DNA of 64,000 bases, from positions 2,480,001-2,544,000 of the forward strand of contig NC_014924.1 of assembly GCF_000185965.1 (NCBI RefSeq), read 5' to 3'. The notes beneath the pieces were generated by a model. It saw nothing but the letters and a program-made list of their open reading frames with translations, did no database searches and was not told the DNA's origin. A program made the position numbers and the translations under genes. Shown in pieces: positions 34,670 through 48,565 of this stretch (within the stretch, counting starts at the first letter, position 1; each line of letters opens with the position of its first letter). Origin of the DNA: Pseudoxanthomonas suwonensis 11-1. GTDB taxonomy: Bacteria; Pseudomonadota; Gammaproteobacteria; Xanthomonadales; Xanthomonadaceae.

Positions 34670-35830
34670 TCAGGGGCGCTGGTCCAGAGGGACGAACGAG
34701 AGATTTTCCGGGCCGGTGTAATTGGCGCTGGGACGGATGATCTTGCCGTCCTGGCGCTGCTCGATCACGTGGGCGCTCCAGCCGGCGGTGCGGGCCAGCA
34801 CGAACAGCGGGGTGAACATGGCCGTGGGCACGCCCATCATGTGGTAGCTGACGGCGCTGAACCAGTCGAGGTTGGGGAACATCTTCTTGATGTCCCACAT
34901 CACCGTCTCCAGCCGCTCGGCGATGTCGAACATCTTCATGCTGCCCTGCTCGGCCGACAGCTCGCGCGCCACTTCCTTGATCACCTGGTTGCGGGGGTCG
35001 CCGACGGTGTACACCGGGTGGCCGAAGCCGATCACCACTTCCTTGCGCTCGACCCGGGCCTTGATGTCGGCCTCGGCCTCGTCCGGGCTGTCGTAGCGCT
35101 TCTGCACCTCGAACGCGACCTCGTTGGCGCCGCCGTGCTTGGGACCGCGCAGCGCGCCGATCGCGCCGGCGATGCAGCTGTACATGTCCGAGCCGGTGCC
35201 GGCGATCACGCGCGCGGTGAAGGTCGAGGCGTTGAACTCGTGCTCGGCGTACAGGATCAGCGAGGTGTGCATCGCCTTGACCCAGGACTCGCGCGGCTTC
35301 TCCCCGTGCAGCAGGTGCAGGAAGTGGCCGCCGATGGAGTCGTCGTCGGTCTCGACCTCGATGCGCTTGCCGTTGTGGCTGTAGTGGTACCAGTACAGCA
35401 GCATCGAACCGAGCGAGGCCATCAGCTTGTCGGCGATGTCGCGCGCGCCCGGGTGGTTGTGGTCGTCCTTCTCCGGCGAGATGCAGCCGAGCACCGACAC
35501 GCCGGTGCGCATCACGTCCATCGGGTGGGCCGACGGCGGCAGCTGCTCCAGCGCGGCCTTGACCGCGGCAGGCACGCCGCGCAGCGCCTTGAGCCTGGCC
35601 TTGTAGCCGGCCAGCTCGGCGCGGTTGGGCAGCTTGCCGTGGACCAGCAGGTAGGCGATCTCCTCGAACTCGCTGCCATGGGCCAGGTCGAGGATGTCGT
35701 AGCCGCGGTAATGCAGGTCGTTGCCGCTGCGGCCGACGGTGCACAGCGCGGTGTTGCCGGCGGCGGTGCCGGACAGGGCCACGGACTTCTTCGGCTTGAA
35801 TGGGGTGGCGGGGGCGGTGGTCTCGCTCAT
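34670..35830 (-). CDS. prpC: 2-methylcitrate synthase
   Basis: The 386-residue citrate-synthase-fold enzyme condenses propionyl-CoA with oxaloacetate. The catalytic residues are all visible: the His in GPKHGGANE, the His in [16 protein letters not shown] and the Asp in [14 protein letters not shown]. The sequence [20 protein letters not shown] is typical of PrpC rather than GltA. It follows prpB after 52 bases. acnD/prpF are not adjacent, and prpE lies at 52.3 kb. Confidence 0.95.
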
Positions 35831-35882
35831 CTTCTTGCTCCAGGTTCTGTGCCCGGCCGGCGCATGGCCGGGCCGGATGCGG

Positions 35883-36767
35883 TCACTTCTTGGCGGCGAA
35901 CAGCGCGTCGAGCTTCTGCTCGAAGGCGTGGTAGCCGATGCGGTCGTACAGCTCCTCGCGGGTCTGCATGCTGTCGACCACGGCCTTCTGGTGGCCATCG
36001 CGGCGGATGGCCTCGTACACGTTCTCGGCGGCCTTGTTGGCGGCACGGAACGCCGACAGCGGGAACAGCTGGATGGCGACGCCGGCGCTGGCCAGCTCGT
36101 CGCGCGAGAACAGCGGGGTCTTGCCGAACTCGGTGATGTTGGCCAGCACGGGCACCTTCACCGCGTCGACGAACCTGCGGTAGGTGTCCAGGTCGTAGGC
36201 GGCCTCGGCGAAGATGCCGTCGGCACCGGCCTCGACGCAGGCGATGGCGCGCTCGATCGCCGCGTCCACGCCGTCGACCTGGATGGCATCGGTGCGCGCG
36301 ATCAGGAAGAAGTCCGGATCGGTCTTCGCATCGGCCGCGGCCTTGACCCGGTCGACCATCTCGCCCTGGGTCACGATCTCCTTGCCCGGGCGGTGGCCGC
36401 AACGCTTGGCGCCGACCTGGTCCTCGATATGGCACGCCGCGGCGCCGGCCTTGATCAGGCCCTTGATGGTGCGCTCGATGTTGAACGCGCTCGGGCCGAA
36501 GCCGGTATCGATGTCCACCAGCAGCGGCAGGTCGCACACATCGGTGATGCGACGGGTATCGACCAGCACGTCCTCGAGGGTGTTGATGCCCAGGTCCGGC
36601 AGGCCCAGCGAACCGGCCGCGACGCCGCCGCCGGAGAGGTAGATCGCCTTGTAGCCGGCGCGCTTGGCCAGCAATGCGTGGTTGGCGTTGATCGCGCCGA
36701 TCACCTGCAGCGGCGACTCGGCGGCCAGGGCGGCGCGGAAGCGGGCTCCGGCGGAAAGGGTGGACAT
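35883..36767 (-). CDS. prpB: 2-methylisocitrate lyase
   Basis: The 294-residue isocitrate-lyase/PEP-mutase superfamily enzyme splits 2-methylisocitrate to pyruvate and succinate. The catalytic Cys loop is [12 protein letters not shown] (KKCGH type). Mg-binding residues are in VDIDTGFG and EDQVGAKRC. It is the first gene of prpBC and is divergent from the citrate-synthase fusion gene, with a 16-bp repeat shared by both promoters. Confidence 0.95.
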
Positions 36768-36801
36768 GGGGTGCTCCAGGCGGGTGCTATCGACCGGCGC
36801 A

Positions 36802-36848
36802 ATGTGTCACCGAGGTTCCGGTTGATCAATCTTGATCCGGACGATCAA
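36802..36848. promoter_or_regulatory. Putative operator, prpB side
   Basis: GTTGATCAATCTTGAT at 36821-36836 is repeated exactly at 37039-37054. An ATGTGTCAC nonamer stands 19 bases before it. A third half-site, GATCAA at 36843-36848, makes TTGATC-n5-GATCAA dyad symmetry with 36832-36837. It lies 35-82 bases before the prpB start. It is probably bound by the divergently encoded HTH-citrate synthase fusion. Confidence 0.65.
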
Positions 36849-37020
36849 TGTTTCGCCGCCGCGAGGGCGTGACAGGGTGCACGCGGCGCGCCGATCCGGT
36901 GCCGCCTGGTACTCGCCGGTCACGTGCTGGCGACAACGTGGCGGCAGTCACAGTGCGGACTTGGCCAATGGTCGAAATCCGGCGACCCAAGGCAACCGGA
37001 CCGGTGCACAACGGTTCCGC

Positions 37021-37054
37021 ATGTGTCACGCTGTTATCGTTGATCAATCTTGAT
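37021..37054. promoter_or_regulatory. Putative operator, fusion-gene side
   Basis: The same 16-bp GTTGATCAATCTTGAT occurs at 37039-37054, and the same ATGTGTCAC nonamer at 37021-37029, spaced 18 instead of 19 bases from it. The repeat ends 13 bases before the start codon of the fusion gene. This is a position where a bound protein would block transcription or translation, as expected for autoregulation. Confidence 0.65.
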
Positions 37055-37067
37055 TCTTGTAGTCAAC

Positions 37068-38294
37068 ATGTCCATCGACCGAGACCTGATCCCCGCATCC
37101 GAGGCCTGCCGAGTGCTGGGCATCAGCCCGGCCACGCTCTACGCCTACGTCAGCCGCGGACTGCTGGAGTCGCGCCCCGGTCGCGACCACCGCAGCCGCG
37201 TCTACCGGCGCCAGGACGTCGAGCGGCTTGCCCAGCGCAAGCGCCTTGGCCGCGGCCCGGCACGCGGCGCCGCGCAAAGCCTGGACCGCGGCCTGCCGGT
37301 GCTGGAGACCCGGATCTCGCTGATCCGCCCGGACGGCCCGTACTACCGCGGCCGCTCGGCCGTGGGCATGGTCCGCGCCGGCGCCACGCTGGAGGACACC
37401 GCGCGACTGCTGTGGGACTGCGGCACCCAGGATCCCTTCGCCGACCCGGCGGGCGACTGGCCCGCGCGGGTGGTCTCGCTGGCCAACGATGCCGAGCTGC
37501 CGCCGCTGGCGCGGGCGATGGCGGTGATCCCGCTGCTGGCGCTGCAGGTGCCGCATTCGTTCCAGGCCGACCAGGGCACCCGTCGTGCCCTCGCCGCTAC
37601 CCTGCTGCGCCAGAACGCTGGCCTGCTGGTGGCGCGGCGTCCGTCCGGCCCGGTGCACCGCCTGCTCGCCGACACCTGGCGCCCGGACGACGAGGGCTTC
37701 GCCGAACTGGTCCGCGCCGCCCTGGTGCTGTGCGCCGACCATGAGCTCAATGTCTCCGCCTTCGCCGCGCGCGTGGTCGCCTCCACCGGCGCACACCTGC
37801 ACGCGACCGTGTGCGCCGGCCTCTCGGCCCTCGCTGGTCCGCGCCACGGCGGTGCCACCACGCGCGTCTACAAGCTGCTGGAGGATGCGCGCCAGAGCCG
37901 CGACGTGCGCCGCCTGATCGCCTCGCGCTGGCGCCAGGGCGAGGACCTGCCCGGCTTCGGCCACGCGCTGTACCCGGAAGGCGATCCGCGCGCCAGCGAA
38001 CTGCTGGCGATGCTGCGTACCCAGCCGGTGCCGGAGCAGCCGATGGCGCTGCTGGAGGAAGTCATCGCCGCCGCCGAGAGCGTGGCCGAGCGCCGCCCGA
38101 ACGTGGACTTCATGCTCGGCGCGATCTGCTTCGCCTACGGGCTGCCAGCGGCGCCCGCACTGTCGATCTTCGCCGCCGGCCGCCTCGCCGGCTGGCTGGC
38201 CCACGTGCTCGAACAGCAGGCCCTGGGCCGCCTGATCCGCCCGCGCGCCAGCTACACCGGCCTGCCGCCGGAAACCGACGCCGAGCAGGAGTAG
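37068..38294 (+). CDS. MerR-type HTH fused to citrate synthase; probable propionate regulator
   Basis: The 408-residue protein has an N-terminal MerR-like helix-turn-helix (residues 7-57: ACRVLGISPATLYAYVSRGL, then VYRRQDVERLAQ). A full citrate-synthase fold follows (about 78-400). The catalytic set is retained: His260 (GPRHGGA), His299 (GFGHALYPEGDPR) and Asp347 (PNVDFMLGA), plus the Arg-rich RPRASY motif. Family members are usually annotated simply as citrate synthase. The DNA-binding domain, divergence from prpBC and the shared repeat suggest a transcription factor sensing propionyl-CoA, oxaloacetate or methylcitrate. Whether it also catalyses is open. The ATG at 37068 was chosen over a frame opening at 37050. 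Confidence 0.85.
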   Translation: MSIDRDLIPASEACRVLGISPATLYAYVSRGLLESRPGRDHRSRVYRRQDVERLAQRKRLGRGPARGAAQSLDRGLPVLETRISLIRPDGPYYRGRSAVGMVRAGATLEDTARLLWDCGTQDPFADPAGDWPARVVSLANDAELPPLARAMAVIPLLALQVPHSFQADQGTRRALAATLLRQNAGLLVARRPSGPVHRLLADTWRPDDEGFAELVRAALVLCADHELNVSAFAARVVASTGAHLHATVCAGLSALAGPRHGGATTRVYKLLEDARQSRDVRRLIASRWRQGEDLPGFGHALYPEGDPRASELLAMLRTQPVPEQPMALLEEVIAAAESVAERRPNVDFMLGAICFAYGLPAAPALSIFAAGRLAGWLAHVLEQQALGRLIRPRASYTGLPPETDAEQE

Positions 38295-38298
38295 CGGG

Positions 38299-38495
38299 AA
38301 AACCGGGGTCAGAGTGCAATTTCTCTCCCAGCTTCCCGATCCCAAAACCGGGGTCAGAGTGGGATTTCCGCAGACCTCCATCCAGTCTCACGGATGCTGG
38401 AGAGCAAAAACCGGGGTCAGAGTGCGATTTCTCCTCGACGCAGCCACGGGCTGGTCGGGAATGTCCGGAGAAATTGCACTCTGACCCCGGTTTTT
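38299..38495. repeat. REP-like cluster 1 (four copies)
   Basis: Four copies of the element CCGGGGTCAGAGTGCAATTT, with flanking A-rich and C-rich ends, lie between the converging fusion and hybrid-kinase genes. Direct copies are at 38299-38323, 38344-38368 (GGGATTT variant) and 38406-38431 (GCGATTT variant), and an inverted copy is at 38470-38495. The last two can pair into a stem of about 25 bp, so the cluster may act as a bidirectional terminator or mRNA stabiliser. Confidence 0.9.
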
Positions 38496-38502
38496 GTTTC
38501 CC

Positions 38503-40419
38503 TCAGCCGAGCTTCTGGCGGACGGCGCGCAGCAGTTCGTTGAGGTTGAACGGCTTGAGCAGCATGTCCATGCCTTCGCCGAGGAAGGCCTGGCGGTTCT
38601 GGGCGTTCTCGGCGTAGCCGGTGATGAACAGCACGGCCATGTCCGGGTCGCGCTCGCGCACGCGGTCGGCCAGTTCGCGGCCACTGAGGCCGGGCAGGCC
38701 GACGTCGGTCAGCAGCAGGTCGAAGCCACGCGTGGCCACCGCCTGCAGCGCTTCGCCGGCATCGGCGCAGGCCACCACCTCGTAACCGGCGTCGACCAGC
38801 ACTTCCAGGGCCATGCCGCGGACCAGCTCGTTGTCGTCCACCAGCAGGATGCTCTCGGCACCGCCGCGGACCTCGGCCTCCTCCGCCTGCACCTCGGTCG
38901 CGACCTCGGTGCCGCGTGGCAGCAGCAGCTCGATCGTAGTGCCCTGGCCTTCGACGCTGTGCACGCGCGCGGTGCCGCCGCTCTGGCGGGCGAAACCGTA
39001 GGTCATCGACAGGCCCAGGCCGGTACCCTGGCCGATCGGCTTGGTGGTGAAGAATGGCTCGAACACCTTGTCGACGATGTCGGCGGGGATGCCCGAGCCG
39101 TTGTCGCTCACCTTCAGGCTCACGTACTCGCCCGGCGGCAGGTCGCCCGGCAGCGACTCGGCCGGACGCGCGGAAATGGTCACCCGGCCGGCCCCACGCA
39201 GCGCGTCGCGGGCATTGATCACCAGGTTGAGGACCACGCTTTCCAGCTGGTTGGCATCGGCCACGACGACGAGTGACTCGTCCGGCAGGTCGAACTCCAG
39301 CTCGATGTTCTCGCCGATGGTCCGGGCCAGCAGTTCGGACAGGCTGGCCACGCGCGGGCCGATGTCGAAGGCCGTGGTGTCCAGCGACTGCTTGCGCGCG
39401 AACGCCAGCATGCGCTGGGTCAGCGCCGCGGCGCGGAAGGCCGAAGTCGTGGCGACGCTGGCGAAGCGCGGGATCCGCTCCAGGCGGTTGGTCTCCACCG
39501 CGGAGTTGATCATGTCCAGCGCACCGATGATGCCGGTCAGCAGGTTGTTGAAGTCATGGGCAATGCCGCCGGTGAGCTTGCCCAGCGCGTCCATCTTCAT
39601 CGCCTGCTGCAGCTCGGCCTCGGTGCGCTCGCGCTCGGCGATCTGCACCGCCAGCTCGCTGGTGGCCGTGTGCAGGCGCTGGCGGTGTTCCTGCTCGCGC
39701 GCGTGCTGCTCGGTCTGGTCCTCCACGTACAGCAGGCCGGCACCCGGCTCCCGGTGCGGGGTGACCCGCCACTCGGTCACTCGGGTGCCGCGCGGGGTAT
39801 GCAGCCAGTACCGGCCCTTCCAGCTGGTGCCGTTGCGCAGCGCCTCGCACAGCTCGGCCACCGGCTGGTCGGCGAACAGGCTGGACAGGTCCGCGGCGCC
39901 GGCTTCGTCCAGCAGCCGCTGGAAGGCCTGGTTGGCCTCGCGCACGTCCAGCGCGCCGGTGACCACCGCGATCGGCGCGCCGATGTTCTCGAAGATCTCG
40001 CGGAAACGCGCCTCGCTGGCATGCAGCGCGTCCTCGGCGCGACGCACGCGCAACAGGGTGCGCAGCGTGGCCAGCAGCACGTCGTGGTCCACCGGATGGA
40101 CCAGGTAGGCGTCGGCGCCGGCGTCCAGGCCGGCGATCACGTCGCCATTGGCGATCGAGGCGGCGGAGACATGGATCACCGGCAGCAGGCTCGTGGCCGG
40201 ATCGGCGCGCAACTTGCGCACCAGGTCGAAGCCGCTCATGTCCGGCAGGTTCACGTCCAGCACCAGCGCGTCGTACTGCGCGGTGTCCAGGCACTGCTGC
40301 CCCTCGGTGCCGGTCCCGGCCTCGTCCACGCTGAAGCCATGCCGCTCCAGCACGCGCCGCACCGAGTAGCGGGTGGCGGCGTTGTCGTCGACCACCAGGA
40401 TCCGGTTAGCCCCCGTCAT
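38503..40419 (-). CDS. Hybrid histidine kinase with N- and C-terminal receiver domains
   Basis: The 638-residue cytoplasmic protein has these domains in order: receiver 1 (phospho-Asp55 in LVLDVNLPDMSG), PAS-like domain (about 135-245), HisKA (His288 in LTGGIAHDFNNLLTG), HATPase_c (N-box LVINARDAL, and DNGSGIP), and receiver 2 (Asp near 572 in LLLTDVGLPGLSG). It is the last of six overlapping stressosome-operon genes and overlaps the preceding kinase by 14 bases. It has no DNA-binding or GGDEF output of its own, so it must pass phosphate on or act by protein contact. Confidence 0.9.
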   Translation of the reverse strand: MTGANRILVVDDNAATRYSVRRVLERHGFSVDEAGTGTEGQQCLDTAQYDALVLDVNLPDMSGFDLVRKLRADPATSLLPVIHVSAASIANGDVIAGLDAGADAYLVHPVDHDVLLATLRTLLRVRRAEDALHASEARFREIFENIGAPIAVVTGALDVREANQAFQRLLDEAGAADLSSLFADQPVAELCEALRNGTSWKGRYWLHTPRGTRVTEWRVTPHREPGAGLLYVEDQTEQHAREQEHRQRLHTATSELAVQIAERERTEAELQQAMKMDALGKLTGGIAHDFNNLLTGIIGALDMINSAVETNRLERIPRFASVATTSAFRAAALTQRMLAFARKQSLDTTAFDIGPRVASLSELLARTIGENIELEFDLPDESLVVVADANQLESVVLNLVINARDALRGAGRVTISARPAESLPGDLPPGEYVSLKVSDNGSGIPADIVDKVFEPFFTTKPIGQGTGLGLSMTYGFARQSGGTARVHSVEGQGTTIELLLPRGTEVATEVQAEEAEVRGGAESILLVDDNELVRGMALEVLVDAGYEVVACADAGEALQAVATRGFDLLLTDVGLPGLSGRELADRVRERDPDMAVLFITGYAENAQNRQAFLGEGMDMLLKPFNLNELLRAVRQKLG

Positions 40420-41269
40420 TGCTCTCCTCCGGCAGTGCGATCGGCACGATCACATGGAATTCCGACCCCTCGCCCACCACGCTGCTGACGCCTACGCTGC
40501 CGCCGAGCAGTTCGGCGAAGCGCCGGCACAGCGCCAGCCCCAGGCCGGTGCCGCGCAGGCGCTTCTGGATCGGGGTATCGACCTGGATGAAGTCCTCGAA
40601 CAGCGCGCCCAGCATATGTTCGGGGATGCCGATGCCGGTATCGCGCACGCTGAAGCGCACGAAACCCACGCCCTCGGGACGCGCGGAGATCGCCACGCGG
40701 CCCTTCGGGGTGAACTTGAGCGCGTTGGAAATGAAGTTGCGCAGGATCTGCGCCAGCTTCTTGTCGTCGGTGTAGAGCATCGGCAGCGGCGGCGGCTCCT
40801 CGAACACCAGCTCGACGTGGTGGGCGTCGTCGACCAGCGGGCGGAACATGCCGCGCAGGGCCGAGAACAGGTCCATCAGGTCGAACCACGCCGGCGAGAT
40901 CGAGATGCGCCCGGCCTCGATCTTGGCCAGGTCCAGCAGGTCGTCGACCATGTCGCGCAGCTCCACCGCCGCGCTGCTGACGAACCGCACCTGCCTGAGC
41001 TGCTCGTCGTTGAGCGGGCCGTCCATTCCCTCTTCCAGCAGCCGGGTGATGCTCAGGATCGAGCCCAGCGGCGTGCGGAACTCGTGGCTCATGTAGGACA
41101 GGAACCGGCTCTTGAGATCCGAGACCTCCTTGAGCTGCTCGGCCTGCTGGTCCAGCTCGGCGTACAGGGCGAGCACGCCCTGGTTGGTCTCCTCGAGCTC
41201 GGTCCGCAGCGCGGCGTTCTCCGCGCGCAGGCGCTCCAGTTCCGCGGCGATGTCAGTGGTACTGGTCAC
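40406..41269 (-). CDS. Soluble sensor histidine kinase of the stressosome operon
   Basis: With a GTG start at 41269, preceded by GGAGG six bases upstream, the protein has 287 residues. An N-terminal coiled coil (LERLRAENAALRTELEETNQ) leads to HisKA (SHEFRTPLGSI, the phospho-acceptor His) and HATPase_c (NFISNALKFTP, DTGIGIP, GTGLGLALC). It has no membrane segment or sensor domain, so the signal must come from a partner, plausibly RsbT or the stressosome. It overlaps the phosphatase gene upstream by 17 bases and the hybrid kinase downstream by 14 bases. Confidence 0.9.
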   Translation of the reverse strand: MTSTTDIAAELERLRAENAALRTELEETNQGVLALYAELDQQAEQLKEVSDLKSRFLSYMSHEFRTPLGSILSITRLLEEGMDGPLNDEQLRQVRFVSSAAVELRDMVDDLLDLAKIEAGRISISPAWFDLMDLFSALRGMFRPLVDDAHHVELVFEEPPPLPMLYTDDKKLAQILRNFISNALKFTPKGRVAISARPEGVGFVRFSVRDTGIGIPEHMLGALFEDFIQVDTPIQKRLRGTGLGLALCRRFAELLGGSVGVSSVVGEGSEFHVIVPIALPEESNDGG

Positions 41270-42284
41270 GTTGCGCCTCCAGGCGAACGGCAAGGGCGCC
41301 GGTGTCGTCGCGGCCGCGATCGAAATCGCGCAGCAGCACGGCGAGCACCAGGGCGGGATGGCGGTACACCAGGCCTTCGTACTGGGACAGGCTCCAGCGG
41401 GTCTGCAGGCCGTCACTGTGCATCAGCAGCAGTGCACCCGGCGCCGCCGGCACGACGAAGGAGGGTGTGCGGCGGTGCTGGCTGCCGACGATGCCCGGGT
41501 GCGAGGCAAGGCCACGCGATGGCTGGCCCGGCTCGTGGATCGCCGCGGCGATGTTGCCGACGCCGGCGAAGCGGACCACGCCGGACTCCGGTTCGTGGAC
41601 GAAGGCAGCGGCGGCGCCACCGCGGGTCGGGGACATGCGCGCGTGCATCCGCGACAGCACCTCGTCCGCGGCCAGCTCCGGGCCCTCGGCGGCGGCGGCG
41701 ATCCCGGCATCGGCCGCCTCGGCGGCGAGCAGGCCGTGGCCGAGGCCATCGACCAGGACGCCCGAGGTGCGCCCGCCATCGTCGCGGGACACGAACCAGG
41801 CGTCGCCGCACACCGGTTCCTGGCGCATCGGCAGGCGCAGCGCGCCGTAGCCGAGGTCCTCGTTGCGGGTGCGCTCGCCGTAGATGCGCGCCAGCACGAT
41901 CGCGCCGCGCGCGTCCGACCACACGTCGAACACCTGTGCCTGGCGCTTGATCGCGCCCAGGCCCTGTCCGGGGGTGCCGCCGGTGGAATAGCCGTCCGGC
42001 AGGCAATCGGAGAGCGAGAAACCCGGCCCCCGGTCGATGCCGCAGACCTCCACGCCCTTGCTGGTGCGGCCCTGCACCAGCGACAGCAGCACGCGCCCGC
42101 CGCGACCATGGCGCAGCACGTTGGTGGCGATCTCCACGGCGGCCAGGGTCACGCGCCCGGCATCCAGCTCGGCGAAATCGGCCAGCTGCGCGAGAACCTG
42201 CGCCTCGCGGCGGACCTGGCCGACCTGGCTGGCTTCGTCCACCGTGATGGCGCGGGTGACCTGGCCGACGAACCCTATGCCCAT
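41253..42284 (-). CDS. ATPase (RsbT/RsbW-like) fused to SpoIIE/RsbX-type phosphatase
   Basis: The 343-residue protein has two domains. Residues about 10-135 are a GHKL ATPase (VEIATNVLRHGRGGRVL, GIDRGPGFSLSD, GTPGQGLGAI). Residues about 155-340 are a PP2C-type phosphatase with metal-binding Asp residues in VCGDAWFV and VLVDGLGHGL, and a C-terminal DRGRDDTGALAVRL. RsbX in Bacillus dephosphorylates RsbR and RsbS to reset the stressosome; here that phosphatase carries its own ATPase module. The gene overlaps rsbT by 10 bases. Confidence 0.88.
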   Translation of the reverse strand: MGIGFVGQVTRAITVDEASQVGQVRREAQVLAQLADFAELDAGRVTLAAVEIATNVLRHGRGGRVLLSLVQGRTSKGVEVCGIDRGPGFSLSDCLPDGYSTGGTPGQGLGAIKRQAQVFDVWSDARGAIVLARIYGERTRNEDLGYGALRLPMRQEPVCGDAWFVSRDDGGRTSGVLVDGLGHGLLAAEAADAGIAAAAEGPELAADEVLSRMHARMSPTRGGAAAAFVHEPESGVVRFAGVGNIAAAIHEPGQPSRGLASHPGIVGSQHRRTPSFVVPAAPGALLLMHSDGLQTRWSLSQYEGLVYRHPALVLAVLLRDFDRGRDDTGALAVRLEAQRDQYH

Positions 42285-42673
42285 TTGGTGATCGCAACCC
42301 GCGTGCCCTTGCCGGGCGAGCTTTCCAGCTCGAATGCATCCACCAGCCGGCGCGAGCCGGAAAGCCCCAGGCCCATGCCGTTGCCGGAGGTCCAGCCGTC
42401 GGTGAGGGCCCGGTCGATGTCGGGGATGCCGGGGCCCTGGTCGACGAACTCCAGGCGCACGCCCTTGCGCATGCCGTCCTTGACCGCGCGCCAGCTCATG
42501 CTGCCGCCACCGCCATAGACCACGGCATTGCGCGCCAGCTCGGATGCGGCGGTGATCAGCTTGGTCTGGTCGACCAGGCGCAGGCCGCAGGCCACCGCCG
42601 CCTGGCGCGCGGCCTGGCGGGCGAGGACCACGTCCTGCTCGGTGCGGATCGACAGTTGGCCATCGGCGCTCAT
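42275..42673 (-). CDS. rsbT: Serine/threonine kinase RsbT (stressosome switch)
   Basis: The 132-residue GHKL kinase has an N-box in ITAASELARNAVVYGGGG, a G1 box FVDQGPGIPDIDRAL and the G2 stretch GNGMGLGLSGSRRLVDAFEL, all typical of RsbT. In Bacillus it phosphorylates RsbS and RsbR and, once released, activates the downstream partner (RsbU). Here no RsbU is encoded; the fused phosphatase or the kinases that follow are candidate partners. Its start overlaps the rsbS stop (ATGA). Confidence 0.93.
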   Translation of the reverse strand: MSADGQLSIRTEQDVVLARQAARQAAVACGLRLVDQTKLITAASELARNAVVYGGGGSMSWRAVKDGMRKGVRLEFVDQGPGIPDIDRALTDGWTSGNGMGLGLSGSRRLVDAFELESSPGKGTRVAITKWA

Positions 42674-43035
42674 TCGGACTCCGCGCTGGCCTGGCGCAGG
42701 AGGCGCATGCCGCGCTCCACGTCCAGGGCGGTGGAGACGCCGGTGAGGTTGAGGCCCAGCTCGACCAGGGTGATGGCCACCGCCGGCTGCATGCCCACCA
42801 CCACGGTGCGCGCGTCCATCACCGCGGCCAGCGCGGAAATGGTGGCGATCATCCGGCCGATGAAGGAGTCGACGATGTCCAGCGCCGAGATCTCGATCAG
42901 CACGCCGCGCGCGGAGGTCTTGCGGATGCGCTCGGCCAGGTCGTCCTGGAGGGTCAGCGCCAGCTGGTCGTGCATGTCCACCTGGATGGTCACCAGGAGG
43001 ACGTCGCCCATCTGCAGGATCGGGATGCGCTCCAT
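42670..43035 (-). CDS. rsbS: Stressosome scaffold protein RsbS (STAS domain)
   Basis: The 121-residue single STAS domain (MERIPILQMGDVLLVTIQVD start) contains SALDIVDSFIGRM. Ser57 matches the RsbT-phosphorylated Ser59 of Bacillus RsbS. Together with RsbR it should form the stressosome core that sequesters RsbT. Its start codon shares bases with the rsbR stop (TGATG), so the pair is translationally coupled and probably made at a fixed ratio. Confidence 0.93.
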   Translation of the reverse strand: MERIPILQMGDVLLVTIQVDMHDQLALTLQDDLAERIRKTSARGVLIEISALDIVDSFIGRMIATISALAAVMDARTVVVGMQPAVAITLVELGLNLTGVSTALDVERGMRLLRQASAESE

Positions 43036-43886
43036 CAGCCCGCCTTGGTCACGGTGACGCCCGTGCGCTTGAGCGCCAGCGCCAGCGCATCGGCGAGGTT
43101 GGCCTTGGTGACGATGCCCTGCAGGTCCAGGCCCAGGTGGACGATGGTCTGCGCGATCTGCGGACGCACGCCGCTGATGATGGCGTCGGCGCCCATCAGG
43201 CGGATGGCGGTGACGGTCTTGAGCAGGTGCTGGGCGACCAGGGTGTCCACGGTGGGCACGCCGGTGATGTCGATGATCGCGATCTCCGAACCGGTCTCGA
43301 CGATCCGCTGCAGCAGCGATTCCATCACCACCTGGGTGCGCTGCGAATCCAGCGTGCCGATCATCGGCAGCGCCAGCACGCCTTCCCAAAGCTTCACCAC
43401 CGGGGTGGACAGCTCCAGCATCTCTTCCTGCTGGCGCTTGATCACGTCCTCGCGGTTCTTCTGGAACACCTTGACCGTGTGCAGGCCCAGCTGGTCGACC
43501 AGCTCGGACACCGCGCGCAACTGGGCGGCCATCAGCTGCGGCTCGCCGGCATGGCCCTGCTCGATCACGTCGAACAGCGGGCGCTTGAGCGAGAACACGA
43601 AGCTGGCGGTCTCTGCCGCGCTGAAGCCCTTGAGCACGCGCTCGCGGGACAGCTCCTCGAGGAAGTGGCGGGTGTCTTCCCAGGCGTTGCCCTGGAGGTT
43701 GCCGGCGTCGCCGGAGGCGACCGCGCCGAGGAACAGCTGCCAGAACTCGCGTGCCTGGGCGTCGAGCTCACGCTGGGTGGTGCGGCCATCGAGGCCGGTC
43801 CTGGCGAAGTTCGCCACCCAGGTCTCGACGACCTGGTCCTGGCGGGACTGGAGAAGGGTGTAGGTACGCGGATCGAGGGCGGCCAT
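43035..43886 (-). CDS. rsbR: Stressosome sensor protein RsbR
   Basis: The 283-residue protein has an N-terminal helical sensor domain (1-155; LLQSRQDQVVETWVANFART resembles the RsbRD-type N-terminus) and a C-terminal STAS domain (about 160-280). Both regulatory threonines are present: Thr178 in LPMIGTLDSQRT and Thr215 in GVPTVDTLVAQH, equivalent to Thr171 and Thr205 of Bacillus RsbRA. It is the first gene of the operon. The sensed signal is unknown. The start at 43886 gives MAALDPRTYT. Confidence 0.92.
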   Translation of the reverse strand: MAALDPRTYTLLQSRQDQVVETWVANFARTGLDGRTTQRELDAQAREFWQLFLGAVASGDAGNLQGNAWEDTRHFLEELSRERVLKGFSAAETASFVFSLKRPLFDVIEQGHAGEPQLMAAQLRAVSELVDQLGLHTVKVFQKNREDVIKRQQEEMLELSTPVVKLWEGVLALPMIGTLDSQRTQVVMESLLQRIVETGSEIAIIDITGVPTVDTLVAQHLLKTVTAIRLMGADAIISGVRPQIAQTIVHLGLDLQGIVTKANLADALALALKRTGVTVTKAG

Positions 43887-44230
43887 GCAGGGGTCCTGTG
43901 TTGGCGCAGCCGGACGACCTCGACTCTGCAAGGATCCCCCCAGCCACATTGTTGATCGAGCCTAACGGAAACGTAATCACCGCGTCGGCGCGCGCGATTA
44001 GCGGGAAACGGATGTGAAACCGGTGTGAAATGCAGCCGGAACGGCGTCGTGCGGACTGCGTCGTGCGGAGGCTGGTCCGCTGCCCGTTGGCAGCTTCCCC
44101 GGACCGGCCGTGCTCCACGGTATCAGTGAATGCCTAATCGCTGCGAATGCAATCCGAATTGGTCGCGGCAACCGTTCACCCTAGACTCGGGCCGGCCACG
44201 GGCGCCGATGCCCGGATTCCGGGAGCTCCC
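43887..44230. other. Divergent region upstream of the stressosome operon and GH43 gene
   Basis: This stretch of about 340 bp has no gene. It is AT-richer near 43950-44040, where the stressosome promoter probably lies, and contains the GH43 promoter at 44159-44187. No sigma-B-like consensus was recognised. Confidence 0.5.
44159..44187 (+). promoter_or_regulatory. Putative promoter of the GH43 gene
   Basis: TTGGTC (44159-44164) and TAGACT (44182-44187) are separated by 17 bases, an ideal sigma-70 spacing, and end 43 bases before the proposed start codon. Confidence 0.5.
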
Positions 44231-45301
44231 ATGGACGACCATCGACCGCACCACCCTGCCCGCCCTGCCGACGACCTGGTGCCGCGCCTTCCGGCGACGC
44301 GGCGCGCGCGCGTGGCCATGCGCCTGCTGGTGCTGCTGCCCCTGCTGGGCGCGGCGCTGGGCGTCGCCGCGGGCGAACCGGCGCCCGGCTCCAATCCGCT
44401 GTTCCGCGACCGGTTCACCGCCGACCCCGCCCCACTCGTGGTTGGCGACCGCCTCTATCTGTACGTGGGCCACGACCAGGCCCGGGGCGAGGAGATGTTC
44501 AACATGCGCGAGTGGCTGGTGTACTCGACCACCGACATGAAGCAGTGGACCGACCACGGCCCGGTCATGAAGTTCTCCGACTTCAAGTGGGCCAAGGCCG
44601 ACGCCTGGGCCTCGCAGGCCATCGAGAAGGACGGCCGCTTCTGGTTCTACACCGCGGTCGAGCACGACGACACCCACCCGGGCAAGGCCATCGGCGTGGC
44701 CGTCTCGGATTCGCCGACCGGTCCGTTCGTCGACGCCAAGGGCTCGGCGCTCATCACCAACCAGATGACGCCCAAGGGCGAGCACAGCTGGGAGGACATC
44801 GACCCGACGGTGTTCACCGACGACGACGGCACGACCTGGATCGCCTGGGGCAATCGCCAGTGCTACATCGCCAGGCTCAAGCCGAACATGATCGAGATCG
44901 ACGGGGAGATCACCGAGATCACCCCGCCGCACTTCGAGGAAGGTCCCTGGCTGCACAAGCGCGGCGACATCTACTACCTGACCTATGCCTCGCTGGATCG
45001 CAGCGACCACACCGACGAGCGCATCTCCTACGCCACCGCTCCCTCGATCCAGGGCCCGTGGACCTACCGCGGCGAACTGACCGGATCGGGGAAGAACAGC
45101 TTCACCATCCACCCGGGCATCGCCGAGTTCAAGGGCCAGTGGTACATCTTCCTGCACAACGCCGCGCTGTCCATCGGCGACCAGGAAGGCGCCCTGGGCC
45201 GCCGCGCGGTGACCGTCGAGTACCTGCAGTACAACGACGACGGCACGCTCAAGCCTGTGGTGCAGACCGAGGAAGGCGTGTCGGTACCGCCGCCGCGCTG
45301 A
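44231..45301 (+). CDS. Secreted glycoside hydrolase family 43 protein
   Basis: The start at 44231 (GGGAG just upstream) gives 356 residues with a basic N-terminal extension before the hydrophobic signal MRLLVLLPLLGAALGVAAG. A start at that Met (44318) is also plausible. The five-bladed propeller shows the GH43 catalytic set: base Asp in RFTADPAPLVV, pKa-modulating Asp in EDIDPTVFTDDDG, and acid Glu in HFEEGPWLHKRG. Such enzymes release arabinose or xylose from plant polysaccharides. No other glycan-utilisation gene is adjacent. Confidence 0.88.
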   Translation: MDDHRPHHPARPADDLVPRLPATRRARVAMRLLVLLPLLGAALGVAAGEPAPGSNPLFRDRFTADPAPLVVGDRLYLYVGHDQARGEEMFNMREWLVYSTTDMKQWTDHGPVMKFSDFKWAKADAWASQAIEKDGRFWFYTAVEHDDTHPGKAIGVAVSDSPTGPFVDAKGSALITNQMTPKGEHSWEDIDPTVFTDDDGTTWIAWGNRQCYIARLKPNMIEIDGEITEITPPHFEEGPWLHKRGDIYYLTYASLDRSDHTDERISYATAPSIQGPWTYRGELTGSGKNSFTIHPGIAEFKGQWYIFLHNAALSIGDQEGALGRRAVTVEYLQYNDDGTLKPVVQTEEGVSVPPPR

Positions 45302-45313
45302 GGCGTCGAGCTG

Positions 45314-45402
45314 GAAAAACCGGGGTCAGAGTGCAATTTCCTTCCCGCTGCCCACGCCGCGGCGGCGTCCAGGGAGAAAACTGCACTCTGACCCCGGTTT
45401 TC
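45314..45402. repeat. REP-like cluster 2 (inverted pair)
   Basis: A direct copy (45314-45340) and an inverted copy (45376-45402) of the GGGGTCAGAGTGC element form a potential stem of about 26 bp with a 35-base loop. They lie between the converging GH43 and DUF4259 genes. Confidence 0.9.
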
Positions 45403-45458
45403 TCTTTACAGGCGTGCAGCGGCCATCCGGCCCGCGGGCTAGCGAGCTGCAACCAGGA

Positions 45459-45872
45459 TCAATGCGAGTCGCGAAGTGCCGTCTGCAGGGCGGCTATCGA
45501 GGACTGCCATTGGGCGAAGTCGTCGCTCTCCTCCCACAGCTCGCGCAGCTCGGAATCCGGAGCCAGGACGCGGGCCAGCGCCCGCTGCGCCAGCTGCAGC
45601 AGTTCCACTGACGGCTTGACGGTGATCGAGGCCAGCCACTCGTCCACCGGCTCGGTGTAAGCGTCGGACTGGGTTCCGCGGCCAAGGGCCTTGGCAAGGA
45701 CCTCCGCGGCCGCGACAGCCTCTTCGGCCTCCCCGGCATCGAGATCCTCCCCGCTGTCGGCGGCGCGCTGGAGGACCGCAGCGACGGGCCCGAAATCCCT
45801 GCTCTCCTCCAGCCCGTCAGCCCAGTCGGCGGCAGTGTCGTTGCCAAACGGCTCGTGTGACCATGCACCCAT
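45459..45872 (-). CDS. DUF4259 domain protein
   Basis: The 137-residue acidic protein begins MGAWSHEPFGNDTAADWADG, the hallmark of DUF4259 (MGAWG...F.ND.A.DW). The remainder is helical and rich in Ala and Glu. The start at 45872 has AGGAG at the right distance; an ATG two codons earlier has none. The function is unestablished; family members are common in strain-specific islands and often near toxin/immunity genes. It has no signal peptide. It is divided from the SUFU gene by 58 bases on the same strand. Confidence 0.8.
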   Translation of the reverse strand: MGAWSHEPFGNDTAADWADGLEESRDFGPVAAVLQRAADSGEDLDAGEAEEAVAAAEVLAKALGRGTQSDAYTEPVDEWLASITVKPSVELLQLAQRALARVLAPDSELRELWEESDDFAQWQSSIAALQTALRDSH

Positions 45873-45930
45873 CGTCATCTCCTCTTGGACCAGCGGTCCT
45901 GGACATTCCCCGTGCACCCGGCCCAGGCCG

Positions 45931-46665
45931 TCACCGGAAGGGCCATGCCCGCCTCCTCGCGACGTTCCTGCGGCCGATATCGATGAAGTCGGTGACATCG
46001 TGCTCGTCGAAGCGCTCGAGCAATGCGTCCGAACCCTCGCGCAGCTTCAGGTCCATCTCTTCCTGGAAAAGCGGGACGAGCGAGTAGAACTGGATCTCCT
46101 TCACCCCCGGAATGGACAGCTGCTCGAACTCCGGCGGGGTGCCCAGCGGTGGGAGCACGATGGTGCCGGTGAAGGGAACGCCGGGTGCGTAGGGCTCGGC
46201 CGGGTGGCCATTGGGCACGGTGTGGCCGTAGCCGAGCCAGGTCGCATGCTTGTGCGGGAGCCGCGCCAGGTCCTTCAGCAGGCGGATGGGCCAGTACCAG
46301 CGCTCGTCCTTGAAGGACTCCTGGTCGAGCTTCCAGTCCGCCGGCAGGGTGACCATCAGCTCGGCGAATTCCGGGAACCCGGAATCCTCCGGCACCGTCA
46401 TTGGCAGGTCACTCATGCCCGATGTCACCAGGCGGACGGCGGGGAAATCCTCGCTCGCAGGCACCACATGCACATCGATATGCACGGTGTCCGAGACGAG
46501 CTCGTGGAATACGGAGCTGATCGGCCCCAGGTGCTGTTCGATATGGTCGGAGATCTCGGCGATGAACTCCTCGCCCTTGGGCGCCGCAAAAGGCGCCGGT
46601 TCGTCACGGTAATGGATTGGCTGCCCGCCAAGGCTGACGACCTTGGCCTTCCCGTGCGTCCCCAT
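45931..46665 (-). CDS. Suppressor-of-fused (SUFU) domain protein
   Basis: The 244-residue cytoplasmic protein matches the bacterial SUFU family: ISDHIEQHLGPISSVFHELV, HIDVHVVPASEDFPAVRLVT and a C-terminal IQFYSLVPLFQEEMDLKL. Bacterial SUFU proteins are known as immunity proteins in polymorphic toxin systems. No toxin gene was found here, so it would be an orphan. The ATG at 46665 follows GGGAGGAG closely; an in-frame ATG 18 bases upstream is weaker. Confidence 0.82.
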   Translation of the reverse strand: MGTHGKAKVVSLGGQPIHYRDEPAPFAAPKGEEFIAEISDHIEQHLGPISSVFHELVSDTVHIDVHVVPASEDFPAVRLVTSGMSDLPMTVPEDSGFPEFAELMVTLPADWKLDQESFKDERWYWPIRLLKDLARLPHKHATWLGYGHTVPNGHPAEPYAPGVPFTGTIVLPPLGTPPEFEQLSIPGVKEIQFYSLVPLFQEEMDLKLREGSDALLERFDEHDVTDFIDIGRRNVARRRAWPFR

Positions 46666-46833
46666 CCCTCTCCTCCCTGGCATCCCCCGTCGCGAACCAC
46701 CGTCGACCGGCGCACCGGTCCATGGCGCTGCTTGCTGGCAGTCGATCTTGCCGTGTCCCGCGCCGGCGTGTCAGCACCTGTCGCGTGGGGAAGTGCCCGG
46801 ATTCCGACAAGCGGTCGCCAGGATGCCTGCCAG

Positions 46834-46922
46834 AAAACCGGGGGTCAGAGTGCAATTTTTCCCTTACGCCGCGCCAGGTCCAGGCGGTGCATCGGGGAAA
46901 TTGCACTCTGACCCCGGTTTTT
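46834..46922. repeat. REP-like cluster 3 (inverted pair) invading a gene end
   Basis: A direct copy (46834-46860, with one extra G) and an inverted copy (46897-46922) are separated by 36 bases. The inverted copy lies inside the coding frame of the TPR-like gene, whose stop codon (46864-46866) is in the loop between the copies. Confidence 0.9.
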
Positions 46923-47352
46923 CTTCGTCCTGCACGGAGTTGTCGAGCAGGAACTGGCTGATGGCGCGACGCAGGTCGAGGTCATCGGTGCCCGAGGCGA
47001 CGGCGTCGGCGCGGACGGCGTACTCGTAGGCAAGCGCCGACTCTCCCAGGGTCACGTGGCGCTCGGCCAGTTCCAGCAGGATCGAACCTTCGTACGTGGC
47101 GGCGCCGTGCAGCGAGGCCTGTTCCAGCGCGCGCTTGTAGAGCTCGATCGCCGCGCGGTCGTCGGGGGTGAAGTCGGCCAGGGTTTCCCACAGGAAGGGA
47201 TGGTCGCGACCGGCCGCGGCGGTCGATTCGCAGAACTCGCGCAGTTCGGCGTGCAGTTCCCAGGCCGCCTTGCGATCGGCCGACGCGTAGCTGTCGACGA
47301 TGGCACGCGTCAGCTCCAGTACGCGCGCATGGATGTCTTCGGGAACTCGCAT
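46864..47352 (-). CDS. TPR-like helical protein with repeat-encoded C-terminus
   Basis: The 162-residue protein is predicted all helical. ELYKRALEQASLHGAATYEG and LLELAERHVTLGESALAYEY look like tetratricopeptide-type helix pairs. It resembles small TPR-like proteins found beside SUFU and other immunity genes, but no function is proven. The last 20 or so residues (EKPGSECNFPDAPPGPGAA) are encoded by a REP-like element and the sequence between two copies, so the original C-terminus probably ended near NSVQDEE. Confidence 0.7.
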   Translation of the reverse strand: MRVPEDIHARVLELTRAIVDSYASADRKAAWELHAELREFCESTAAAGRDHPFLWETLADFTPDDRAAIELYKRALEQASLHGAATYEGSILLELAERHVTLGESALAYEYAVRADAVASGTDDLDLRRAISQFLLDNSVQDEEKPGSECNFPDAPPGPGAA

Positions 47353-47448
47353 CGGGGGTCCTGCAGGTCGGGGGTCAGGGCCTATTGTCGCCGCGATGGA
47401 AGCGCAGTGGGGTCAATCCGTCGCCACGCCACCCTCGTGTGCTCCCGC

Positions 47449-47780
47449 CTACCTCGACAACAGCCACAGGGCCACGGCGTGCACGCCGATGACGAACATG
47501 ATGGCCCCTGTCCGAGACCCGTGGCACCAGGCGCAGGAACCGGTTGAACCAGCGCTTGCGTTCCTCCTCGTCGAGGCTTTCGAAGTAGGCCTGCAGCTCC
47601 TTCTCGGGCGACCGCTTGAACAGGGCGTCGAACCGCGAGCTTTCCTCGATCCTGATCCCTTGTCAGCGAGCCGGACGACCACGAAGAAGAACAGCGCCCG
47701 GAACAGCAGGCCGGTAACCACGGAGCTCGTGAAGGTGGTTGCGAAGATGATTACGAACAGCGTGGAGATGCCGCTCTACC
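47449..47780 (-). pseudogene. Frameshifted small membrane protein gene
   Basis: Three frames in succession give protein-like sequence. First comes a hydrophobic stretch, TSSVVTGLLFRALFFFVVV. A second frame gives RFDALFKRSPEKELQAYFES followed by LDEEERKRWFNRFLRLVP. A third gives AIMFVIGVHAVALWLLSR and a stop at 47449. Together they would form a protein of about 110 residues with membrane segments at both ends. No start codon is in frame with the first part. Two frameshifts (or sequence errors), near 47655 and 47505, best explain the pattern. Confidence 0.6.
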
Positions 47781-47875
47781 GTCCCCGAAGTTGGACAAGA
47801 AGCCTTGGGGCCAGCGCCCGGAGGGAGCAGGACCTGGCGCACTGGATGGACGTCGACCTCCAGGGCCATCCGCCC

Positions 47876-48325
47876 TCAATCCGCGAACCTGACCTGGGCA
47901 GGACTGAATACCTCGACGTGAGTCTGGTAGTAGTACTTGCCGGTCCGCTTGCCCGCCTCGTCGGCGAAGTCGATGCGGATGCGCCGGGCGATGCCGCGCA
48001 CCACCAGCCTGCGTCCGCGGAGCTCCTGGAACTTCACGCCGAGGTGCTTCTCCAGCCTGGGGACGATCGAGGTGTGCATGCGGATGGTCAGGTTGCGCTG
48101 GTCGCGATAGTCCTTCTCGGAGTTCAGGTAGGACTGATCCGGGTAGGAATCGAGGTTCCTGACCGTAAGCACGAACTCCCCGTGCATGCCGCGGCCGGGG
48201 GCCTCGTTCGCCCCGCGGATCGCCTCGAGCGGCTCGATCCAGCCTTGCCCGGTTGCCGGCACCGAGGCGCAGGCGCTGGCCGCGAGAACAACCATGGCCG
48301 TGAGTAGAAGGATCAGCAAGCGCAT
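47876..48325 (-). CDS. Putative lipoprotein of unknown function
   Basis: The 149-residue protein has a lipoprotein-like signal (MRLLILLLTAMVVLAASACA, Cys19). The mature part has alternating strands: GEFVLTVRNLDSYPDQSYLN, then RNLTIRMHTSIVPRLEKHLG and RRLVVRGIARRIRIDF. It looks like a small OB-fold or beta-barrel domain, possibly related to nucleic-acid or metal-binding periplasmic domains, but I do not recognise a named family. REP-like cluster 4 lies directly upstream. Confidence 0.7.
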   Translation of the reverse strand: MRLLILLLTAMVVLAASACASVPATGQGWIEPLEAIRGANEAPGRGMHGEFVLTVRNLDSYPDQSYLNSEKDYRDQRNLTIRMHTSIVPRLEKHLGVKFQELRGRRLVVRGIARRIRIDFADEAGKRTGKYYYQTHVEVFSPAQVRFAD

Positions 48326-48351
48326 CCGGATTCCATGGGAACAGTGGCAAG

Positions 48352-48565
48352 AAAAAGCCGGGGTCAGAGTGCGATTTCCATCCGGCGCCGCCCTGGGGGA
48401 AAACCGGGGTCAGAGTGCAATTTGCTGCGTGGCAGCGGCCCAGGTGATGCCGGAGAAAGTGCACTCTGGCCCCGGTTTTCCGCCCGCCGCCTGCCGCGCC
48501 AGAGAGAAATCGCACTCTGACCCGGTTTTCTGCGCAAGAAAATCGCACTCTGACCCCGGTTTTTC
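48352..48565. repeat. REP-like cluster 4 (five copies)
   Basis: There are two direct copies (48352-48379 and 48400-48423) and three inverted copies (48454-48480, 48504-48530 and 48538-48565) of the same element. Variants include GGCCCC and a copy lacking one C. The cluster fills the gap between the lipoprotein gene and the upstream cupin gene and can fold into several alternative hairpins. Confidence 0.9.

Follow-up and report, generated by a model that had tools for sequence, protein, structure and literature searches.

A stressosome operon with a two-component output in Pseudoxanthomonas suwonensis 11-1 and its soluble histidine kinase as a putative target of RsbT

The DNA analysed here, in the following called the window, comprises 64,000 nucleotides of contig NC_014924.1 of Pseudoxanthomonas suwonensis 11-1 and carries a block of six genes encoding the stressosome proteins RsbR, RsbS and RsbT, an ATPase-phosphatase (gene 4), a soluble histidine kinase (HK, gene 5) and a hybrid kinase (gene 6). 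As outlined in Table 1, these genes lie consecutively on the minus strand from 43886 to 38503 and overlap by 1, 4, 10, 17 and 14 bases, respectively, the 17-base overlap between gene 4 and the HK being contingent on the GTG start of the latter. An earlier interpretation made from the letters alone (the sequence-only reading) had described one overlapping block with a soluble HK devoid of a sensor domain, and both descriptions were borne out: the HK yielded no sensor domain, its input region consisting of a coiled coil only, with the motif TNxGVxAL ahead of HisKA and HATPase. The hybrid kinase is built in the Pfam order REC1-PAS-HisKA-HATPase-REC2, where REC denotes a receiver domain. The locus is best explained as a gram-negative stressosome with an RsbX-type reset and a two-component output. 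In the interpretation developed below, which we regard as on balance probable, released RsbT would act in trans on the coiled coil of the HK, in analogy to its action on the RsbU linker in Bacillus.

Table 1. Features of the six-gene operon, with positions in the window
Feature	Position	Strand	Remarks
rsbR	43035..43886	-	283 aa; Pfam RsbRD_N+STAS
rsbS	42670..43035	-	121 aa counted from ATG; Pfam STAS
rsbT	42275..42673	-	132 aa; Pfam HATPase
ATPase-PP2C (gene 4, RsbX-like)	41253..42284	-	343 aa; Pfam HATPase_c_2+SpoIIE
Soluble histidine kinase (HK, gene 5)	40406..41269	-	GTG start, 287 aa; Pfam HisKA+HATPase
Hybrid kinase (gene 6)	38503..40419	-	638 aa; Pfam Response_reg (2), PAS, HisKA, HATPase
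HK coiled coil, proposed RsbT-responsive element	41114..41209	-	
HK coiled-coil core motif T28-N-Q-G-V-L-A-L35	41165..41188	-	
REC1 of hybrid	40030..40419	-	phospho-Asp55 present, His108 at receiver Lys position

Conservation of the operon was followed in a family sample (247 genomes from 54 genera, RsbT being called at E <= 1e-15), in a phylum sample of 398 genomes and at 80 named loci, i.e. the best 80 of 525 relatives. From the 34 family loci outside this genome 32 were fetched, G161 and G193 being left out with contigs under 4 kb; the family-fetched and the named set overlap by 10 loci, for which the counts of distinct sequences given below correct. RsbT was detected in 35/247 family genomes and 9/54 genera, and the complete six-gene set in 31 of the 32 fetched loci. 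The exception, L060 (genome G175), is split into short open reading frames and has an altered HK motif, as expected of a decaying copy. Among the named loci 74/80 carry all six genes, and five of the six incomplete ones (L087, L098, L129, L142 and L156) run into contig ends. The five junctions fall within 30 bases in 74, 74, 72, 70 and 62 of the 74 complete named loci, whereby the distances rest on estimated start codons. As all six genes recur in 74/80 named loci, the operon is no chance arrangement, and the notion of an unusual, rare locus was ruled out on the same grounds. Evidently, the six genes form one co-conserved unit.

Hosts among the named loci include Xanthomonas, Stenotrophomonas, Dyella, Luteibacter, Pseudomonas, Stutzerimonas, Comamonas and Ramlibacter, together with metagenome-assembled genomes (MAGs) labelled Planctomycetaceae and Eremiobacteraeota; the closest ones, with 95% and 90% RsbT identity, belong to P. 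suwonensis, the window's own genome perhaps being left out. The operon is common in Pseudomonas, Xanthomonas, Stenotrophomonas, Luteibacter and Burkholderiales, and its gene order is conserved from Xanthomonadaceae to Burkholderiales and Deinococcus. In the phylum sample only 15 of 36 further RsbT loci hold all six parts, with one more lacking just the last part, and many distant stressosomes therefore have other outputs. Plasmids are able to carry the operon, since it was found in its entirety on the 29-kb Xanthomonas vasicola plasmid pXVH29 (L198, NZ_CP034650.1); 5 of the 286 plasmid records matching the HK were examined. Because of this plasmid copy, and because flanking genes are common only to the nearest relatives, the operon probably travels as a block.

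The features of a gram-negative stressosome module (rsbRSTX) are present, namely a pair of STAS proteins with phosphosites, an RsbT ATP site and an RsbX directly downstream. The sequence-only reading had matched RsbR Thr178 and Thr215 and RsbS Ser57 to the RsbT phosphorylation sites of Bacillus and had expected the core to work, which agrees with our alignments. Both threonines are invariant in 37 aligned rows; Ser57 (Ser58 in the P0002 numbering, which has one additional leading residue) is Ser in 81/81 rows and aligns with the Ser of the solved Listeria and Bacillus RsbS structures. The ATP site of RsbT, the switch kinase, is likewise intact, Glu45, Asn49, Asp78 and the glycines each being kept in 81/81 rows, as is Asp92, which we take to be the Asp92 of B. 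subtilis RsbT. RsbR and RsbS would hold RsbT, which upon a signal at the RsbR sensor would phosphorylate the two threonines of RsbR and Ser57 of RsbS and then leave. Phosphorylation of Xanthomonas campestris RsbR is cited in passages of PMC9237108.

RsbR consists of an N-terminal RsbRD_N sensor (all-helical in the model), a long helix and the STAS domain with Thr178 and Thr215, and its structure was predicted with a mean predicted local distance difference test score (pLDDT) of 85.8 and a predicted template modelling score (pTM) of 0.59. The best fold match of the model in Foldseek is the Listeria stressosome entry 7b0u; 3zta, presumably the Moorella RsbR sensor domain, is among the weaker ones (E 0.008). 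Within residues 1-150 no His is invariant or reaches 90% conservation in the 37 aligned rows, so that a heme sensor of the Vibrio kind is not indicated. Local BLAST at the named loci gives 28-74% identity to the window for the variable sensor half and 78-99% for the conserved STAS half. The whole genome holds one RsbRD_N protein.

Gene 4 starts with an RsbT-family ATPase domain (residues 1-140), followed by a PP2C phosphatase (residues about 145-343), and its best solved-structure matches are 3zt9 and B. subtilis RsbX 3w40. Glu51, Asn55 and Asp84 of the ATP site and Asp161, Asp179, Asp291 and Asp326 of the phosphatase are invariant in 40 rows. Of the ATPase-SpoIIE fusion named by the sequence-only reading both domains were recovered, and the description can be refined to an RsbX-like PP2C phosphatase with an extra RsbT-family ATPase domain. 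Judged by homology, gene 4 is an RsbX-like phosphatase, which would reset the phosphosites of RsbR and RsbS. An assignment as RsbU was ruled out by the RsbX-like match and the lack of RsbU_N. At four distant loci (L188, L190, L193 and L194) an RsbT-like domain and an RsbX-like phosphatase domain occur in a single protein, and no separate RsbT was seen there.

The Gram-positive output had been described as absent. In agreement with this, the whole genome yielded 0 matches to RsbU_N at the Pfam model cut-off and 0 to the SigBFG model TIGR02980 over its cut-off, with 3 weaker matches to the latter; RsbV and RsbW were not searched by name, and further STAS proteins exist in the genome. Apart from gene 4, SpoIIE has a single match in the genome, by eye an ordinary PPM phosphatase.

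The motif T-x-x-G-V/I-x-A-L was found in 130/131 coiled-coil loci and 116/117 distinct HKs, the exception being the broken L060, and the window HK belongs to the coiled-coil (TNxGVxAL) class as defined here, i.e. it carries the motif before HisKA in an rsbRST operon. For a genome-wide count we used A2, a 48-column model of the coiled coil plus HisKA with the motif core in columns 8-15. The full A2 motif occurred in 34/247 family genomes, all of them among the 35 that bear RsbT (Fisher p 5e-41, from genomes that are not independent). The one RsbT genome without it is G175, in which the operon is broken and the motif altered; in G161 motif and RsbT lie on separate contigs. Partial A2 matches in 11 further family genomes begin at column 15, 18 or 19, that is at or past the core end. 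In the phylum sample the full motif was present in 15/398 genomes, each time at most 2 kb from a strong RsbT match, and a 16th match spans columns 18-48 only.

Freed RsbT would bind this coiled coil, at T28-N-Q-G-V-L-A-L ahead of HisKA, and alter the kinase activity; binding and activation are what we infer here. A precedent is described in passages of PMC12143880, according to which RsbT binds the linker of B. subtilis RsbU and orders it into a coiled coil, the linker residues T89, R91, G92 and Q94 being important and R91 pairing with RsbT D92. The T-x-x-G spacing is common to the HK motif and this linker. At the position equivalent to R91 the 116 distinct HKs carry Q (85), R (24), K (3), N (3) or H (1), and the window HK has Q.

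Coiled-coil linkers precede many HKs, and the HK and the hybrid might merely be co-transcribed with the stressosome genes, with a separate input (e.g. the hybrid PAS) and the coiled coil as a generic signalling helix. The average conservation of the coiled coil, which is not extreme, would fit such an arrangement, as would the fact that the RsbT-HK interaction is a prediction here. However, the HK motif occurs in 34/35 RsbT genomes of the family and 0/212 others, so that the co-conservation across Xanthomonadaceae named as a check by the sequence-only reading was not refuted; together with the gene order shared by Xanthomonadaceae, Burkholderiales and Deinococcus and with natural fusions of RsbT-like ATPases to the HK, this renders mere co-transcription improbable.

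In these fusions an intact RsbT-like ATPase precedes the coiled coil. They account for 8/117 distinct HKs (L168-L171, L173-L175 and L196, the latter from the Deinococcus radiodurans plasmid MP1). In 2/117 the domain is decayed (L172 and L200 (Caballeronia), with the N-box Asn and the G1 Asp gone), and in 107/117, the window HK included, it was not found. Six of the eight intact fusions share the window HK type; L168 and L169 carry another kinase behind the coiled coil. Pfam reports HATPase_c_2 and HisKA in all 3 fused HKs scanned. The profile of the fused ATPase matches RsbT best (3e-40 vs 8e-21 for the domain attached to RsbX), and a tree of the ATPases unites the fused domains and a related domain at L184 in a single clade (support 98/92), with the domains attached to RsbX grouping separately (100/98). 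The HK tree, for which long branches are flagged as a caveat, places the kinases without ATPase in a single clade (99/97), with the fused HKs around it. This topology suggests that the domain was lost in the window lineage. The Nonomuraea locus L197, whose ATPase match is weak (22 bits), was labelled fused in the first HK tree and excluded from the later topology test. Since the window-lineage HK lacks an ATPase domain of its own, probably by loss, free RsbT would serve it in trans.

Two further explanations were considered. The ATPase attached to RsbX might be the messenger, binding the HK or competing with RsbT on the stressosome and so coupling reset to output; in its favour, the residues of its ATP site do not vary in 40 rows, and in complete loci gene 4 immediately precedes the HK gene. 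The HK-fused ATPase of relatives, however, sides with the majority of RsbT rather than with the X domain, and we consider this messenger quite improbable. Alternatively, released RsbT could act as a protein kinase that transiently phosphorylates the HK or the hybrid on Ser/Thr, as passages of PMC9237108 propose for loci without RsbU_N and suggest for Vibrio; the coiled coil would then be only a dimerisation helix. An intact RsbT ATP site and the conserved Thr28 of the HK motif are consistent with this route, yet it leaves both the strict motif around Thr28 and the fusion of an RsbT-like ATPase to the same coiled coil unexplained and is therefore judged unlikely. For action of RsbT in trans on the coiled coil, the confinement of the full motif to RsbT genomes (247 + 398 sampled) and the natural fusions turn the question into one of mutational and binding tests.

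Several observations weigh against such action. The co-occurrence counts are not independent, as the genomes are related, and joint transfer of the whole operon would produce co-occurrence even without protein contact. Average coiled-coil conservation is not exceptional, since the coiled coil ranks 65th lowest in entropy of 259 HK windows. The likeness to the RsbU linker concerns the few positions named in PMC12143880 and may be chance, because R or K stands at the R91 position in only 27/116 HKs and Q in 85. Free RsbT is also present in all ten fused-HK loci, so that the fused domain may do another job. Support for the branch that unites the fused domains and 29 RsbT rows is 87/83, and across this split lie 8 RsbT rows from distant loci; a topology with all fused HKs in a single clade is not rejected by the approximately unbiased (AU) test (p 0.249). 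L100, a Rubrivivax MAG, carries rsbR, rsbS, rsbT and rsbX with no HK in roughly 7 kb past X. Tests of the Vibrio RsbT-VvD1 interaction gave no positive result in the passages available from PMC9237108. Finally, the receiver Lys is found in REC1 of 0/123 loci and 0/108 distinct sequences.

Receivers normally need this conserved Lys. In REC1, the conserved half of gene 6, the Lys position is His in 104/108 distinct sequences (His108 in the window) and the phospho-Asp55 is kept in 123/123 loci; REC2 retains its Lys in 117/118 loci and 103/104 distinct sequences. Because its phospho-Asp is kept but its Lys never, REC1 is an atypical receiver that may act slowly or provide a docking site. The kinase half of the hybrid is of the 'GGIAHDFNNLL' type in the window and, by score, in 60/74 named loci; in 14/74, mostly Burkholderiales, it is divergent (about 30% identical, or 187-248 bits against the model), and likewise in four family loci, which show a 'HELRNPL' box. 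The HK would signal via the atypical REC1 to a lineage-specific kinase module, whose REC2 would relay the signal to a regulator encoded at another locus. Only 4/123 loci have a receiver gene behind the hybrid, so that such a gene was set aside as the output and the final regulator is probably encoded elsewhere; other kinds of output genes past the hybrid were not searched systematically. The sequence-only reading had RsbT or the stressosome steer phosphoryl flow to the hybrid. Of this, the HK stands as a plausible RsbT target, and a simple flow is countered by the Lys-less REC1 and the replaced kinase half.

More tentatively, and with less confidence than we place in the action of RsbT itself, these elements may be combined. 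The HKs would constitute a class gated by RsbT through TNxGVxAL as a coiled-coil receptor; an ancestral RsbT-like ATPase of their own would have decayed and been lost in the Xanthomonas/Pseudomonas/Burkholderiales lineage, leaving dependence on free RsbT; and the signal would pass via the Lys-less receiver to interchangeable kinase modules.

How stressosomes without RsbU and SigB signal into two-component proteins is posed as an open question in passages of PMC9237108. For comparison, the Vibrio vulnificus locus (rsbRSTX with VvD1-VvD2) shares the RST core and an RsbX directly after RsbT (PMC9237108, PMC10014275), and two-component proteins replace RsbU/SigB there, RsbU_N not being detected according to the excerpts of PMC9237108. 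It differs in the heme globin sensor of RsbR, the single-domain RsbX and the presumed output by c-di-GMP (cyclic di-GMP) turnover (PMC9237108, PMC10014275), and the window operon in its RsbX with ATPase, in a soluble HK that is encoded separately and bears the TNxGVxAL coiled coil, and in its REC-PAS-HK-REC end. Similar phenotypes are reported for the two module mutants of Vibrio in passages of PMC10014275. With the B. subtilis RsbRST-UVW-SigB-X system the operon shares the R/S/T core, the matching phosphosites and a coiled-coil linker as the proposed site of RsbT action (PMC12143880, in part); here, in contrast, the effector is an HK, and neither RsbU_N nor a SigB-family protein reached the cut-off in the genome. 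HKs with RsbU_N in proteobacterial stressosome operons are likewise proposed as RsbT targets encoded in the same operon (passages of PMC12143880 and PMC9237108), from which the window HK differs in lacking RsbU_N by Pfam. The D. radiodurans MP1 operon DR_RS15570-DR_RS15595 has the order STAS-STAS-RsbT-RsbX-like-HK-REC/HK and the same coiled coil; its HK differs in the intact N-terminal RsbT-like ATPase and a C-terminal REC, its gene 6 in being a REC-kinase without a second receiver. In passages of PMC6501615 DR_B0028 is higher after vacuum exposure and DR_B0028/29 are tied to an anti-sigma operon; we infer that these two are the L196 kinases.

The kinase ending had also been called little described. 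This is fair for the exact operon in the searchable literature, but the operon is common and stressosomes with HisKA/REC proteins are published: in the passages at hand Heinz et al. 2022 (PMC9237108) report RSTX modules followed by such proteins, most of the downstream proteins being without RsbU_N. Neither the RsbT-like fusion nor the TNxGVxAL motif is named in the literature titles and abstract starts searched, although an earlier mention is possible. What is new here is the link from the stressosome to the HK, as given by the co-occurrence of the coiled-coil motif, the RsbT-like fusions and the Lys-less REC1. The operon may reportedly have been drawn for Xanthomonas already by Pane-Farre 2005.

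Further RsbT relatives were noticed at distant loci. The locus L184 (G358) encodes an RsbT-like domain joined to a kinase-like protein of a different kind, which lacks the coiled coil and has, by eye, an HHRTGNN box; this is a second case of an RsbT relative serving as input domain. Downstream kinases at L182, L185, L187, L190 and L193 have a weakly RsbT-like N-terminal region, and L185 has an HD-GYP-like neighbour (by eye) resembling the published Vibrio VvD1-VvD2 layout. For the N-termini of the Vibrio-type kinases RsbT ranked first of nine models, weakly (probability 30%, E 5e-4); against the fused ATPase the values were 54% and E 1e-4, and an RsbU_N-like control gave 0.25%. If true, Vibrio-type kinases hold a decayed RsbT domain, which we note as a lead. 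An RsbU_N-like region, again by eye, forms the start of kinases or of a GGDEF-like protein encoded close to rsbT at L176, L178, L180, L181 and L191.

Methylcitrate-cycle genes adjoin the operon in the window (34670-38294), namely a prpC-like (34670-36046) and a prpB-like gene (35883-36767), followed by a second citrate-synthase-like gene with a helix-turn-helix start (37050-38294); these names were assigned by reading the sequences rather than by a family search. The flank lies beside the operon only in four near relatives (L032-L035), three of which recur as named loci, and with synteny restricted to these 4 fetched family genomes a dependence of the operon on the methylcitrate genes was set aside. 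Furthermore, a 22-bp repeat, AACCGGGGTCAGAGTGCAATTT, occurs in 13 copies (up to 3 mismatches) in window 38301-48561, often as facing pairs and mostly between larger genes, with 0 matches in 100 shuffles, and looks like a repetitive extragenic element.

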